Positions 540-12,299 of a DNA stretch of 25,401 nt are shown in pieces. The notes beneath the pieces are model-generated. The model made no database searches. It was not told the DNA's origin and was given only the letters and a program-made list of their open reading frames with translations. Made by a program: the position numbers and the translations under genes. The DNA comes from a virus. Within the stretch, counting starts at the first letter, position 1, and every line of letters starts with the position of its first letter. The stretch is from IMG/VR virus record IMGVR_UViG_3300029309_000317, positions 1 through 25,401 of that record, one strand, 5' to 3'.

Positions 540-2486
540 TTATATTGTACTCCTTCTTCTAATATTAGCTAACTGGTTCTGGCTTGATGTCATTTCATCT
601 GTCACTACAAAAGCTTTTAATGGTTCAGGTTCTTGCCCTCCAGTAAGTTCAAAAGAACCTCCTAAAGCATTACCATTTGGTATACCGCTACCACCACCTG
701 CACTACCACCACCACCTACATTACCTACACCACCACTACCACCACTACCACTTGGATCAGTTGAAACAATTTTTTGAATTTGTAAAGCTGAAAATGCAGC
801 TGCTAAACCTGCTTGTATTGTAGGATATGCTGGAAATACAGCTGTTACTGGTGATTTTTGAGCTGTACTAAAAGCATTTTGTACACCCTGTATACCTGAT
901 ATAGTAGCATCAGCAATAGCTACAGCTTTTCCTATTTTAGAACCTTCACCAGCTATCTCACTAACTAATCTTAAACCACTTCTAGCTAGAGCTACTGATT
1001 GGTCTCTTACAATCTTTTTTCTTATTATTTCCTTTTTAGCATCTTCTTCTTCTTCTTGTTCAAATTTCTCTCTAAACTTTTGAGTTATAGCATCATTTTC
1101 CTCTTCAAATAATTCTTTGTTCAATAGTAGTAATCTATTCTTTTCCTTTTCATCAGTTACAGTTTCATGTATTTGATTTAACCTCCTTTCATTCTGTCTT
1201 TCAATCAAAGCTCTCTCCCTTTCTTCCTCATCTTGAATACTATTAATTCTATTATCTTCAAGTATCTTGTTAAAATCTTCTATTGTTTTTGCTTGAGCAT
1301 CAGCTCTTCTTTTTTCATCAGCAATTCTTTTATCTTCAGCTTCTTTTCTTTTAGCTTCATTTTCCCTTTCAGTTTTTCTTCTAATAGTGTTAGCTCTAGC
1401 TTCTACAGTTTGCTGCCTTCTAGCACTCTCTCTTCTTATGTTTGCTAGTTTTATTTCAGCTTCCGCAATTTGCTCTAAATCTTTTTGTAGATTTTCACCT
1501 TGCCCTTTTTGTGCTTTTAATATTCTTACATTCTCTTCAGCATTAGCTACTTTTTTAGCATTTAATTTTTCTTCTATTTCATTAGCATCTTCTAAAGCTT
1601 TTAACCTCTCTTTATCACTTAAAGTTAAATCTTCAGATTTTAATTTTAGCTTTTCTATTTCAGCTCTTCTTTGTGCAAACTCTACATTTAAATCTCTCTC
1701 TCTATCAACTAAATCTTGTAAACTCTTTTTTAGAGCTACAGCTACAGTAGTTTCTCTTACTATCTCATCACCTATTCCTGTAAACTGATCTTTTAATTTT
1801 GTTAATCCAGCACCAAACTCACCACTAAACAATAAACCAACACCATCTACTAAACCAGATATCCTATCTACTACTACTTTTATTCCTGCACTTAAACCAG
1901 TTAAACCTCTTTGTAAAAGTTCAGCTCCTCTTTTAGTTTGTGTTAAATAAGTTATAAGAGTACCAAAAGCTACTACAAAAGCACCTATACCTGTTGAAAT
2001 TAATCCAGCTTTTATAGTTGCAAAAGATGCTTTAGCTACAGGTATAATACCAGCAAAACCTTTTTTAATACCATTAAGAGAAACACCGAATACTTTAAAA
2101 TCAGCAATCTGATCACCTAAAGTTTTAACAGTTTCTTTGTTTGCTACATTAAATTGTTTTACTTCTTCTTTAGCTTCTTTTTGTTCTTGTTTTATTTGTT
2201 TTAATCCTAATTTTTGATTTTGTAATTCAGCTGTTACATTCCTGATATCTTCATTTAACTTTGCTTGTCCAGCATAAAAAGCACCTTTAGGTATACTATC
2301 TTGAATTTGTTTTAATCTTAATAATTCTTTTTCTAACTCAATAATGTTTGTATTTTGAGCATTTAAACTAGCATTTAATTCTTTTACATTATCTTGAGCT
2401 TGTTTTAAACTTTTAGTATATTCTCGAGTATCTTTTGTAGCTGATTTTGTATCAGATTTTATACTCATATAAATTTCTTCTGCCAT
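540..2486 (-). CDS. Tail tape measure protein
   Basis: This 648-residue protein has the layout of a tape measure. Residues 20-120 are a heptad-like coiled coil rich in K, E, Q and N. Residues 132-225 form a hydrophobic Gly/Ala-rich block likely to be membrane-active during DNA entry. A second long charged coiled coil spans about 250-490. A Gly/Ser-rich linker (about 585-615) leads to a C-terminal tail, PEPLKAFVVTDEMTSSQNQL then RRRST, which I recognise from flavobacterial phage tape measure proteins. At about 1.5 angstrom per residue the length predicts a tail near 100 nm. The start MAEEIYM is chosen because the ATG lies 10 bp after the upstream stop; an internal ATG at 2466-2468 is an alternative. 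Confidence 0.85.
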   Translation of the reverse strand: MAEEIYMSIKSDTKSATKDTREYTKSLKQAQDNVKELNASLNAQNTNIIELEKELLRLKQIQDSIPKGAFYAGQAKLNEDIRNVTAELQNQKLGLKQIKQEQKEAKEEVKQFNVANKETVKTLGDQIADFKVFGVSLNGIKKGFAGIIPVAKASFATIKAGLISTGIGAFVVAFGTLITYLTQTKRGAELLQRGLTGLSAGIKVVVDRISGLVDGVGLLFSGEFGAGLTKLKDQFTGIGDEIVRETTVAVALKKSLQDLVDRERDLNVEFAQRRAEIEKLKLKSEDLTLSDKERLKALEDANEIEEKLNAKKVANAEENVRILKAQKGQGENLQKDLEQIAEAEIKLANIRRESARRQQTVEARANTIRRKTERENEAKRKEAEDKRIADEKRRADAQAKTIEDFNKILEDNRINSIQDEEERERALIERQNERRLNQIHETVTDEKEKNRLLLLNKELFEEENDAITQKFREKFEQEEEEDAKKEIIRKKIVRDQSVALARSGLRLVSEIAGEGSKIGKAVAIADATISGIQGVQNAFSTAQKSPVTAVFPAYPTIQAGLAAAFSALQIQKIVSTDPSGSGGSGGVGNVGGGGSAGGGSGIPNGNALGGSFELTGGQEPEPLKAFVVTDEMTSSQNQLANIRRRSTI

Positions 2487-7642: not shown

Positions 7643-8218
7643 TTATCTTGTTTCTTTTCTTATTAAATCTATAACACTTAAATTAAATTCTTTTGCAAAC
7701 TGATTTTGAAAGTTCTTATATGTAACCCTTAAAGCATTTTGAAAAAAGCTTATACCTTTTATTCCTTTTGTCCATAGCACCTTTACCATAGCTATCTTTA
7801 ATCCTACAGTTGTTTGAAATTGCCCTAGCTCGTTTCTAGGTTGTAAACCCTTTTTTCTAATAAAAGAACCTATACCTTTATATATACTACCAGATGACCT
7901 TCCACTACCAAACCTAAAAGGTGTATTTAAAACTTCTGATTTCCAGTTTTTATATTGATTGATACCATCATAAGTACCAGCATGTTTACCTGTTTTTATT
8001 TTTCCACCAGCTCCACTTACACCTTTATCTACAAAAGCTCCATAATCCTCCATGATAAAATCTAAAGTATAAACATCATTATTTACATTTATACTGTATT
8101 TCAAACTACTTTCTAAATTACCACCACCTTTACCTCTTCTTTGTAGATTACCAGCTGATAAGTTTACAAGCTTTTGCCCAAAATCATTTATAGAATTTTC
8201 TAACCTTCTATTTACCAT
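7643..8218 (-). CDS. Tail completion / neck protein, HK97 gp10-like
   Basis: This 191-residue protein has the signature of gp10-like tail completion proteins in Bacteroidota phages: MEDYGAFVDKGVSGAGG near residues 56-72, then IGSFIRKKGLQPRN, and a C-terminal GIKGISFFQNAL helix. These proteins sit at the head-tail joint and help stabilise the completed tail. The protein is basic and lacks membrane segments. The ATG overlaps the stop of the upstream gene as TAATG. Assignment rests on the YGAFVDKG motif, the length and the neighbouring tail genes. Confidence 0.7.
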   Translation of the reverse strand: MVNRRLENSINDFGQKLVNLSAGNLQRRGKGGGNLESSLKYSINVNNDVYTLDFIMEDYGAFVDKGVSGAGGKIKTGKHAGTYDGINQYKNWKSEVLNTPFRFGSGRSSGSIYKGIGSFIRKKGLQPRNELGQFQTTVGLKIAMVKVLWTKGIKGISFFQNALRVTYKNFQNQFAKEFNLSVIDLIRKETR

Positions 8219-8692: not shown

Positions 8693-9469
8693 TTATTTTT
8701 TTTTACTTTTTGGATGTTTCTTTGGTAATAGATCATAATCAGTTGTATATTTAGGATTTTGAGGTCTACCATTCTTTACTAAATACAAGTAAGCATTAAC
8801 CCTAGCAAAAGCCCATTGTGATGGTGATTTTACTTTAGGTGAATGAGATGTATTGAAAGCTCCTAACCCCCTTTGAAAAACAGCTTTTAACTGTCCTAAT
8901 GTAACACCATAACCTAATTTATCTTTATATCTTTTATTGAAATCATCTGATTTCTTTTGTAGTGTAGCTTTATCTTTTGCTGATACCTTCGCCCCTCTTG
9001 ATGTAGATGCATCACCTTTAGCACTCCCTTTACCTTTTGGTTTCTTTGTAGGTGTATCACTCTTTGGTGCTTTAGGGCTTTTCTTAACACCACCTCTAGG
9101 TCCTGTAGTAGCTAACTTTTCTTTATCTATTTCTTTTAGTTTACTTATTGCCCAGTTAACACCTGCTGAACCGCCCCAGGCGTCCCAAGCTAATCCCCCA
9201 CACCCTTCCGAGTATGGTACATCTTTATTCTTTTGATGTCTTTTGAATGATGCCATCCTAGCAATCGTGTCTCTTGAGATAGGCATTTTTTTAGCTAACA
9301 TGTTGGCTCTTCGTTTTCCTACATTAGTTAAGCAACCACCCCATCCATTCTTTTCAACCCACTTTAAAACTCTTTTAGCATTGTTTACCGCACCTTCTGG
9401 ATAATCATTATAGCTTTTAAGTTTTATACTAATTTCTTCTAGCTTTTCTATTACATCTTCATAGTTCAT
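8693..9469 (-). CDS. Head-associated two-domain protein of Bacteroidota phages
   Basis: This 258-residue protein has two recognisable blocks. Residues 22-113 match a domain common in Bacteroidota phage portals and proteases: PEGAVNNAKRVLKW, then GGCLTNVGKRRANMLA, SRDTIARMASFKRHQKN and AWDAWGGSAGVNWA. A Lys/Pro/Ser-rich linker (about 120-165) joins it to residues 170-250, which carry LGQLKAVFQRGLGAFNTSH and SPSQWAFARVNAYLYL, another module widespread as an appendage of phage structural proteins. The end is very basic (HPKSKKK). The role is unknown; a virion or packaging role is inferred from partners of both domains. Here the two domains form a separate gene instead of being fused to portal or protease. 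Confidence 0.55.
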   Translation of the reverse strand: MNYEDVIEKLEEISIKLKSYNDYPEGAVNNAKRVLKWVEKNGWGGCLTNVGKRRANMLAKKMPISRDTIARMASFKRHQKNKDVPYSEGCGGLAWDAWGGSAGVNWAISKLKEIDKEKLATTGPRGGVKKSPKAPKSDTPTKKPKGKGSAKGDASTSRGAKVSAKDKATLQKKSDDFNKRYKDKLGYGVTLGQLKAVFQRGLGAFNTSHSPKVKSPSQWAFARVNAYLYLVKNGRPQNPKYTTDYDLLPKKHPKSKKK

Positions 9470-9556: not shown

Positions 9557-10105
9557 TTAATATCCTGCTCCTTCTTGAGTTACTGGTATATCACATGTTT
9601 GGAAATCATTTTGTACTACTACATTAACATTAAAAACCCACCCAGCACATAAATTATCAAACCTTTCCTGAAATGGTTCTATACTAAATTGCCCATCTGT
9701 AAAATATAAAGGATTATTAATATCATTTACACCTGCTAAACTTTGCCTTTCTGAATGTCTTAATATTCCTATCAAATCTGTAGCTATCTGTAAACACTCA
9801 TTAAATACATCTTGCTCATTATTAAGCTGTTTTACTAATTTAGTAAAGTTTGCATTTTCATTATTCTTTATCCAGTTCTTATCCTCGCTTACCATATCCA
9901 TAATAAATATCTGAAAGTTATAAATCAACTCACTATCACCAGTACTTACAGCTGTAGGTGTAATATGCATTAAAGGAAATTTTGTATCCTTATCCATATC
10001 TATTTGCCATATATCACCAACTGATGTTGTAAATATTTGATCATGAAATTCGCCTATCCGAAGAATAGTGTTTACTACATTATTGTATGTCTTATTATTA
10101 ACCAT
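9557..10105 (-). CDS. Tail terminator-like protein
   Basis: This 182-residue protein resembles a group of tail terminator or minor tail proteins in Bacteroidota phages: an N-terminal helix (NNVVNTILRIGEFHD), the motif GDIWQIDMDKDTKFPLMHI, a beta strand with NFQIFIMDMV, and a C-terminal FDNLCAGWVFNVNVVVQNDF. Such proteins cap the tail tube at the neck end. The start overlaps the stop of the frameshifted chaperone frame by 8 bp. Function is inferred from these motifs and the tail context. Confidence 0.6.
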   Translation of the reverse strand: MVNNKTYNNVVNTILRIGEFHDQIFTTSVGDIWQIDMDKDTKFPLMHITPTAVSTGDSELIYNFQIFIMDMVSEDKNWIKNNENANFTKLVKQLNNEQDVFNECLQIATDLIGILRHSERQSLAGVNDINNPLYFTDGQFSIEPFQERFDNLCAGWVFNVNVVVQNDFQTCDIPVTQEGAGY

Positions 10106-10349
10106 TTATTTGTACTTTGTTTTGTTCTTGTAAATCTATTTCATAACTTAACCATGTTAAACATTCTAACAATTCTAACTTTGCTATCTTTTCTAAATTT
10201 ACTATCTTACCTTCTGTTAATCTATACATCACTCCAAACCAACCCCACTTGTTTGCAAAATCTCCGTTGTATTTGATTTTAGTTTCATCAGTTTGGTTTT
10301 CATCAAATATGATTGCAAAGTCGTTAATAACTCGCTTCCGAAATTCCAA
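10098..10349 (-). CDS. C-terminal extension of tail chaperone, probably made by -1 frameshift
   Basis: This frame, 83 residues from the TTG at 10347-10349, overlaps the 3' part of the upstream chaperone gene in the -1 frame and has no ATG ahead of its conserved part. It contains FANKWGWFGVMYRL and LELLECLTWLSYEIDLQEQ, which match the C-terminal helices of chaperone-like proteins in flavobacterial phages. The conserved Trp residues lie upstream of the first internal Met, so expression as an independent protein from ATG is unlikely. A -1 slip on the T9 run at 10348-10356 would fuse it to the first 174 residues of the upstream frame, giving about 257 residues. TTG initiation is an alternative. 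Confidence 0.65.
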   Translation of the reverse strand: MEFRKRVINDFAIIFDENQTDETKIKYNGDFANKWGWFGVMYRLTEGKIVNLEKIAKLELLECLTWLSYEIDLQEQNKVQING

Positions 10350-10870
10350 AAAAAAACCAGAGCAGTTTGCACTTCATTAGCTTTCATGTTTTTAAATATC
10401 TTTTTCCTTTCTTCAATATTACCATTATAACCTTCTATAGTATAATCTTTACCATCTTTTTTTATTACAGGTCTATACAATACAGCCATTATTTCTGGTA
10501 AATAGTTTATGTAACCATCTTCCATAAAATGCTCTAAATCTGCATACTCACCTAATGTTATTTCTTCTAGGTTAGGATGAAAACCATACTCTTTATCTTC
10601 AATAGTAATTATATCTTTAAGTGATGTGTTTTCCATAGTTTGTATATCTACCATATTAGATAACACTTGAGTTATATCATGTAAGCTTAAAGCTTCAGCA
10701 AACTTTTTAGGAATATCACTCATAGCTTGAATAAGCATATAAGCTTCATCAGTATTACTTTTCTTTTTGTAAGATATAAGTTTTGCGTATGTTTCAAGAT
10801 TTACATCCTCCCAGCTGTTTATTAATGTAAACTTGTTTTCTTTACCATCCTTGTTAATAGTTACTTGCAT
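10229..10870 (-). CDS. Tail assembly chaperone, zero-frame product
   Basis: This 213-residue protein has the layout of the small tail-chaperone of Bacteroidota phages: an N-terminal strand domain, SWEDVNLETYAKLISYKK near 19-36, GFHPNLEEITLGEYADLEHF near 96-115, then EIMAVLYRP and EVQTALVFFWNFGSELLTTL. In the lambda model, the short form and a frameshifted long form coat the tape measure during tail assembly. The T9 run encodes the VFF before WNF, and the zero frame continues 39 residues past it. ATG at 10868-10870 is the first start after the terminase hairpin. Function is inferred from family resemblance and the frameshift arrangement. Confidence 0.65.
   Translation of the reverse strand: MQVTINKDGKENKFTLINSWEDVNLETYAKLISYKKKSNTDEAYMLIQAMSDIPKKFAEALSLHDITQVLSNMVDIQTMENTSLKDIITIEDKEYGFHPNLEEITLGEYADLEHFMEDGYINYLPEIMAVLYRPVIKKDGKDYTIEGYNGNIEERKKIFKNMKANEVQTALVFFWNFGSELLTTLQSYLMKTKLMKLKSNTTEILQTSGVGLE
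10348..10356 (-). other. T9 slippery site for -1 frameshifting
   Basis: On the minus strand the zero-frame codons are GTT TTT TTT TGG, so the heptamer T TTT TTT satisfies the X XXY YYZ rule for -1 slippage. Slipping back one base after the second TTT moves reading into the 83-codon frame, whose own reading is open back only to 10373. No strong downstream stem-loop was apparent by eye. Confidence 0.6.
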
Positions 10871-10961: not shown

Positions 10962-10990
10962 GGGAGCTGCTAATCAAGTAGCTCCCTTTT
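10962..10990 (+). terminator. Hairpin after terminase gene, with T-tract on plus strand
   Basis: A 7-bp stem (GGGAGCT at 10962-10968, AGCTCCC at 10980-10986) with an 11-base loop is followed by TTTT at 10987-10990 on the plus strand. On the minus strand it begins directly after the terminase stop codon but is followed by AAATTTACG, not a good T-tract. It could terminate a plus-strand RNA, act in both directions, or protect the 3' end of a terminase message. Confidence 0.55.
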
Positions 10991-12299
10991 ACTGTACAAA
11001 GTATTTACCATAATTACCATCTATTTCATAATACATTCTCATAGCTAGAGCATCAGCATAATCTGGTGATCTACCTAATATAGCTTTTACATTATCCTTT
11101 TGTATTATTTGTAGCTTATTATCTTTATCAGCATCTTTTGTTCTTACTTGTTCAAGCTCTTCTATTATATAGTTTTTTACATTTACATCACTACAGCTTA
11201 TACCTACCTGTGCTTTATTTACTAGATCAGATAGCTTGTAATAACATTGTGTTTTTAAATTCTGATAGTTTTCGTTTTTCAAAGCCCTTGCATTATTCAC
11301 AAACGATTGGCATCTCAAGTAATCAGTAACACCACCACCCACTCCATCACTATCTACTATTATGTTTCTAATTGGTACAGCATTTTCTTGTTGTAACTTC
11401 TTAACTTCATCTACAACATCATTTACAGCTGATTTAAGCAACGTTTTAATATACATAGCATGTAACCCCTTCCAAAGTATAATAACTGTTTTATCGTTAC
11501 CAAAACGAGCTACATCACATGATATGTATTTATCACCCTCAACACCCCTTTGATTGAATAGATTTAGTATAGCATCATAATCTATTAAGCTATCATTTGT
11601 AGCATCATACTCCCAGTTTCCATATAGCAATCTTTGTTTGCTTAACTCATCAAGTTCAAATAATTGCTTTTCATAATGTTTAGATATGTATGCATTATCA
11701 CCAACTAAACTTTGTATAAACTTTCTGTATGGTTTTATTGTATTATCTTTTGCTGGTCTATAGTATTCTGTATACACCCAGTTTTTTGCTGGATTGCAAG
11801 TCATCAACATTTTAGGTATTAAATTGTTTTCATCTAGCTTATATCTTAATCTACTAGCTACCACATTCTTTGCTTTTTCTGTTATTTGATTTGCTTCATC
11901 TATAAAAGCTCCTGTTATTTCTAATGAACCTAAACTATCAAAGTTTCTATCACTAGGATATAAGAATAAATCTTTAAGTATTATTTCTGAACCATTTATA
12001 AAAGTAATAATATTACTTGATGCATTGAATGTAAAGTGTTCACCAGATTTAATTTTCCATGCATTACAAACCTCAAAGAAAGTATTAAGTGTAGTTTTCT
12101 TTAGAGCATCTAGTTTACTCCTACCCATCAAGTATCTTGTACTAGGATATTTCATACATAATAGTAGTAACCATGCACACCCTACCCATGATTTACCACC
12201 ACCAGCTGCACCACCAAACAAAACCTCTTTTGTTTTTTTATCAAACAAATACTCTATAGCTAATTGTTGAGTAGCTGTAAATACTGGTTTAGTGTTCAA
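10989..12299 (-). CDS. terL: Terminase large subunit
   Basis: This 436-residue packaging motor has a complete ATPase: Walker A GGAAGGGKS at 29-37, Walker B with catalytic acids in EITGAFIDEA at 127-136, and the coupling motif MTCNPA at 166-171. The nuclease domain shows the three acidic sites: D262 in SCDVARFGNDK, D316/D318 in VDSDGVGGG and D413/D416 in SPDYADALAM. It translocates DNA into the prohead through the portal and cuts the concatemer. The start is TTG at 12297-12299, overlapping the small subunit gene by 11 bp; an in-frame stop lies three codons upstream and the next ATG falls beyond Walker A, so TTG is required. Confidence 0.95.
   Translation of the reverse strand: MNTKPVFTATQQLAIEYLFDKKTKEVLFGGAAGGGKSWVGCAWLLLLCMKYPSTRYLMGRSKLDALKKTTLNTFFEVCNAWKIKSGEHFTFNASSNIITFINGSEIILKDLFLYPSDRNFDSLGSLEITGAFIDEANQITEKAKNVVASRLRYKLDENNLIPKMLMTCNPAKNWVYTEYYRPAKDNTIKPYRKFIQSLVGDNAYISKHYEKQLFELDELSKQRLLYGNWEYDATNDSLIDYDAILNLFNQRGVEGDKYISCDVARFGNDKTVIILWKGLHAMYIKTLLKSAVNDVVDEVKKLQQENAVPIRNIIVDSDGVGGGVTDYLRCQSFVNNARALKNENYQNLKTQCYYKLSDLVNKAQVGISCSDVNVKNYIIEELEQVRTKDADKDNKLQIIQKDNVKAILGRSPDYADALAMRMYYEIDGNYGKYFVQ

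Follow-up and report, generated by a model that had tools for sequence, protein, structure and literature searches.

A conserved run of nine T joins two frames of a putative tail-assembly chaperone gene in phages of apparent Flavobacteria hosts and may be a site of RNA-polymerase slippage

The window, that is the whole stretch of DNA analysed here, is a 25.4 kb virus record from IMG/VR (25,401 nucleotides). On its minus strand, a gene predicted to be recoded was found between the terminase large subunit (TerL) gene and a gene for a protein with a tail-terminator fold. The features of the locus are as follows.

10989..12299, minus strand: terminase large subunit, directly upstream of the recoded gene
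10098..10870, minus strand: the recoded gene in full; its predicted fusion of 257 aa has continuous ORFs (phrog_25418) as homologues, the homology running across the junction
10229..10870, minus strand: zero-frame ORF of 213 aa, the predicted short product and the N-terminal part of the fusion (phrog_32199)
10348..10356, minus strand: T9 run, the putative slippage site, read GTT TTT TTT TGG in the zero frame, with the heptamer T TTT TTT at 10355..10349
10098..10349, minus strand: C-terminal domain in the -1 frame, 83 codons from TTG at 10349, with a conserved FxxKWGW motif
9557..10105, minus strand: next gene, 182 aa, tail-terminator fold (AlphaFold2 pLDDT 80; Foldseek against the PDB)
7643..8218, minus strand: neck or tail-completion-like protein, 191 aa (phrog_29822), whose member in phage P12024L weakly matches phrog_5 (E 4e-4)
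540..2486, minus strand: tape measure protein (phrog_9483, E 2.9e-13)

The tail module also encodes a 258-aa protein (window positions 8693-9469) matching DUF5824 and phrog_2859, neither of known function. A strong inverted repeat, GGGAGCTGCTAATCAAGTAGCTCCC, lies at 10962-10986, after the stop of TerL and before the recoded gene, and is terminator-like on the plus strand.

The zero frame (10870..10229) and the -1 frame (10349..10098) overlapped on the minus strand from 10229 to 10349. The run at 10356..10348 contained exactly nine T; the -1 frame reads TTT TTT TTG GAA there, and was open from GGT TTT TTT TTG through the stop at 10098. An earlier sequence-only reading had described frames of 213 and 83 codons overlapping by 121 bp in the -1 relation, the codons GTT TTT TTT TGG with a perfect T TTT TTT heptamer, a fusion of about 257 residues, and conserved-looking Trp residues in the second frame. 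The coordinates and translations bore out the two frames and their 121-bp overlap, and the heptamer was present within the nine T. The predicted fusion was 257 aa long, with the junction sequence ...TALVFF-LEFRKR..., and the W-G-W of the -1 frame was highly conserved among homologues, being among the best-conserved parts of that domain. The -1 frame and the next gene overlapped by 8 nt, and in relatives there was usually an overlap of a few bases between the -1 stop and the next gene's start.

The T9 and both frames were kept in three close relatives (73-85% identity). When more relatives were searched for with the -1 domain as query, 80 loci were obtained; one pattern of that search, GFFLEFRK, covers the junction, and three further scans were run with patterns placed away from the junction as a check on search bias. 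The junction-free scans agreed with the first, one giving T9 in 71 loci and T10 in 7, and another giving T9 in 76 of 76. Each scan returned only its best 80 loci, so that the resulting 253 related loci are a sample; among these matches the two frames stood in the -1 relation at the run in every one, which is far more than chance would give. Of 224 distinct complete genes, 217 carried T9 and 7 carried T10, none had a shorter run, and the relation was always -1. The homologues were 21% to 89% identical to the window (median 46%). The T9 lay in codon phase 1 in 210 of the 217 genes, in phase 2 in four and in phase 0 in three. The configuration of the run switched approximately nine times on the 224-gene tree by parsimony, yet the run was always 9 or 10 T long. 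Beyond the slip site the zero frame remained open for 25-87 codons. In this respect the comparison with homologous phages proposed by the sequence-only reading came out in its favour, since the slippery run was conserved and both frames were intact.

The T9 was also present in Nonlabens phage P12024L, in which the two frames are annotated as two separate hypothetical ORFs right after TerL; the gene was held by both P12024L and P12024S. Further T9 copies were found in two Flavobacteriia MAGs, one of Flavobacterium and one of Winogradskyella, and in a Flavobacteriaceae genome at 2.64 Mb of a chromosomal contig. Because copies of the gene occur in these two MAGs and in a Flavobacteriaceae chromosome, the hosts of this large phage group are apparently Flavobacteria. 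The Winogradskyella MAG (G002) held two copies of the recoded gene, on contigs C58 and C107. Other T9 runs were observed elsewhere in some of the related loci. In L073 (position 6126) and L080 (6013), another T9 occurred at a conserved WQREFFFKA within a downstream frame of 355-437 codons, with the zero frame remaining open, and in L023 (2632) and L155 (4333) a T9 was found in a small ORF downstream of the recoded gene; this ORF has a hydrophobic N-terminal stretch (ALYQFFFFSVREVKS).

Distant homologues of the gene were found as a single continuous ORF of 259-301 aa in Duneviridae (laban6-1, Ingeline_1, FPSV-F7, 23T and 2A), in Helgolandviridae (Leef_1) and in a Microcystis phage. When the profile of the inferred fusions was compared with that of the continuous ORFs by hhalign, the match had a probability of 98.1% and an E value of 1.3e-13 over 212 columns spanning the junction, with VFF-LEFRKR of the fusion aligned to LFF-GAMQQY of the continuous ORFs. 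No long T run was present at the junction position of the continuous homologues. As these distant ORFs align across the junction, the frameshifted product would be the real full-length protein. Homologues fused in frame and lacking the run, which the sequence-only reading had named as evidence against recoding, do exist, but they form a separate lineage, and the members seen of the T9 lineage all keep the run. The split gene of Flavobacterium phage 6H (L166) was considered as an intermediate and rejected: its gp10 is shortened compared to FPSV-F7, 23T and 2A by an indel relative to these continuous siblings, a local difference at about 10370-10410, approximately 20 codons upstream of the junction. 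Two separate PHROG families, phrog_32199 (zero frame) and phrog_38404 (-1 domain), are here joined into one gene that annotation had split, with phrog_25418 as its continuous homologue; all three families are listed as function unknown.

Homopolymers are error-prone, and the sequence-only reading had allowed that a T was miscounted or that one gene was disrupted. A sequencing miscount, a decayed gene or a phase-variable DNA switch at the homopolymer is nevertheless hardly credible here. The same state was found in all 253 loci among the matches listed, as well as in isolate phages and a bacterial chromosome, and these approximately 250 assemblies rule out a miscounted T or a disrupted gene. 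With the commonest flanks, the T9 form accounted for 95 distinct genes among the homologues, while the fused T10 variant gave no match in the viral collection, and the T8 variant gave seven matches, all in unrelated DNA. The seven T10 genes among the homologues still require a -1 shift; a T10-fused state was seen neither among the homologues nor, with the commonest flanks, in the viral collection, on which grounds phase variation was rejected. In moderate-distance pairs, the difference at the third position of -1 codons was 0.22 per site in the overlap compared to 0.36 before it and 0.32 after it, and the sequence comparisons showed both frames to be under purifying selection. It is also very unlikely that the -1 frame is a separate gene translated from TTG 10349 or another weak start with no fusion being made. 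That frame does begin with TTG, and P12024L is annotated as two genes, but the start falls within the T run, wobble positions relevant to slippage alone are fixed, and the fusion aligns through the junction to continuous ORFs.

The site has features of two slippage mechanisms. As expected of transcriptional slippage, the frames join at an A/T homopolymer at least about nine bases long whose length is conserved; as expected of ribosomal frameshifting, a heptamer of the form X XXY YYZ lies in the required phase (T TTT TTT in all genes). In a lambda-style programmed -1 ribosomal frameshift, P- and A-site tRNA-Phe would shift back by a single base on T TTT TTT and give the same fusion product, and since the run always contains this heptamer such a shift is possible. 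A peptide spanning VFF-LEF would look the same whether it came from an mRNA with ten U or from a -1 ribosomal shift, and so does not discriminate between the mechanisms. A clean discriminator is offered by a doubly silent T-to-C change at the wobble position of the second Phe codon, which is TTT/TTC in the zero frame and TTR/CTR in the -1 frame and would leave the heptamer T TTT TTC. Both UUC and UUU are prone to shifting in E. coli, where the tetramer U_UUC ranks above U_UUU (PMC4066793); Flavobacteria may differ from E. coli in this. On the 224-gene tree, no T/C change was found at this position in the T9 form, compared to 45 and 35 changes at the comparable codons Phe97 and Phe205, respectively. 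Four T/C changes were found at the junction Phe site, all in the T10 form, where TTC closes a run of ten. Elsewhere in the recoded genes, 31% of Phe codons are TTC. The Val172 codon was GTT in 188 of 188 genes, compared to only 32% of Val codons elsewhere. The missing silent C is the strongest single argument, because the Ts outside the heptamer partly overlap codons for conserved hydrophobic or aromatic residues.

The other ORFs of these loci (1,103 ORFs, 0.81 Mb) contained uninterrupted T runs of at least nine at just five places; in these ORFs both A runs (20 observed, 80 expected) and T runs (5 observed, 11.5 expected) of at least nine were rarer than expected. A large proportion of bacterial genomes show selection against polymerase slippage at length nine (PMC1088944), and E. 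coli RNA polymerase slips preferentially on T runs (PMC6260861). The length of the run itself looks to be under selection in these sequence comparisons. Stimulators of ribosomal frameshifting, either an upstream Shine-Dalgarno (SD)-like element or a downstream structure, are common though not obligatory. An SD-like element upstream of the site was found in 5 of 72 genes, and downstream folding, computed in windows for structures free of pseudoknots, gave a mean z of -0.5 with no peak at the site.

Because the uninterrupted T9 appears to be selected and a stimulator was not found, slippage by RNA polymerase is favoured over the lambda-style ribosomal shift. The ribosomal mechanism is a possibility to be taken seriously, though one we regard with some doubt. 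In its favour, every gene offers a perfect, correctly phased heptamer, the two-product design is that of the conserved ribosomal frameshift of long-tailed phages (PMC5009743), and low-level shifting may work without a stimulator. Yet seven T would be enough for the ribosome, and the run was never shorter than nine; T TTT TTC was absent from the T9 form, although it is doubly silent and, in E. coli, no less prone to shifting; no alternative heptamer such as A AAA AAG occurred in the 224 genes; and the site was marked neither by a general SD-like element nor by a folding peak in the windows computed. The sequence-only proposal of a programmed -1 recoding like that of lambda gpG/gpGT is upheld as regards recoding on the T run and the conservation of the frames; a ribosomal mechanism is not established, and selection on the T9 points to the polymerase.

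The recoded gene probably encodes a tail-assembly chaperone pair, judging from context and structure prediction. A short product and a frame-shifted long product with a common N-terminus were predicted in 224 of 224 genes, and the gene lies in the tail gene module, with a terminator-fold neighbour and a tape measure gene downstream. The best PDB matches of the 182-aa next gene by Foldseek were the tail terminators of R4C, T5, lambda and Mu, and that of T4 was also matched. The zero-frame protein was modelled by AlphaFold2 as mainly helical with moderate confidence (pLDDT 63). This model matched phage proteins that are themselves uncharacterized, gave a weak match (E 7e-4) to a single viral model named as a tail assembly chaperone, and had no match in the PDB. 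The Phage_TAC_7 profile weakly matched 2 of 77 family members and was found in none of 60 Flavobacteriaceae genomes, and a profile search for solved relatives gave a single insignificant match. A chaperone pair is the best explanation of these findings because a helical protein predicted in two forms lies in a tail module next to a gene with a tail-terminator fold. That the recoding is real and the protein is some other component of the tail or connector, made in a short and a long form, is a doubtful but possible reading. It agrees with the lack of a significant match to known chaperone families, with the position of the gene between TerL and the terminator, away from the tape measure, and with the Duneviridae homologues, which yield the long form alone from one ORF. 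The neck-like protein and the tape measure come after the terminator-like gene, and the recoded gene is not adjacent to the tape measure. On the other hand, siphophage chaperones typically come in two forms that share an N-terminus, the model consists largely of helices, the neighbouring genes have tail functions, and the one weak fold match with a name was to a chaperone. The tail-chaperone identity put forward in the sequence-only reading is thus plausible from the tail-terminator fold next door, although the searches gave no significant match to a known chaperone family.

Our main reading, to which we give a probability of about 0.5, is that one gene would make two proteins by RNA-polymerase slippage on the T9, the two likely being a chaperone pair like gpG/gpGT. 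Most mRNAs would carry nine U and give the short 213-aa protein. On the T9, the host RNA polymerase would slip, so that some mRNAs would gain one U (or lose two), and these would be translated into the 257-aa form, whose C-terminal domain is different and conserved. Together, the short and long forms would then most likely act as a tail-assembly chaperone pair, the short one abundant and the long one rare. We infer recoding in cells, the polymerase as the slipping machine, the product ratio and the chaperone role from the evidence given above. More tentatively, a lineage of Flavobacteria phages might set its tail-chaperone ratio by polymerase slippage on a frozen T9, in place of a lambda-like ribosomal frameshift. 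The T9/T10 lineage would then offer a natural and directly testable case of polymerase slippage setting the ratio of phage proteins.

Tail-chaperone recoding and bacterial transcriptional slippage are each already known. Known tail chaperones use ribosomal shifting, and no paper treating a tail chaperone as transcriptional slippage was found in the literature searched, which took in few subscription papers. As in lambda G/GT and the frameshift of long-tailed phages, a gene of the tail module is predicted to give two proteins with a common N-terminus, one short and one extended in the -1 frame. Compared to lambda G/GT, a T9 is kept as such instead of varied heptamers, the overlap is longer, with 25-87 zero-frame codons after the slip, and the gene lies between TerL and the tail terminator; sequence homology to the lambda proteins was not demonstrated. 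As in the bacterial slippage genes (Thermus dnaX with A9, Shigella mxiE and spa genes, and Citrobacter tssM with A11), two frames are connected by a stretch of A or T some nine or more bases long. In contrast to these genes, the present case is a phage structural gene, known from its sequence alone, in which 9-10 T have been kept through deep divergence.
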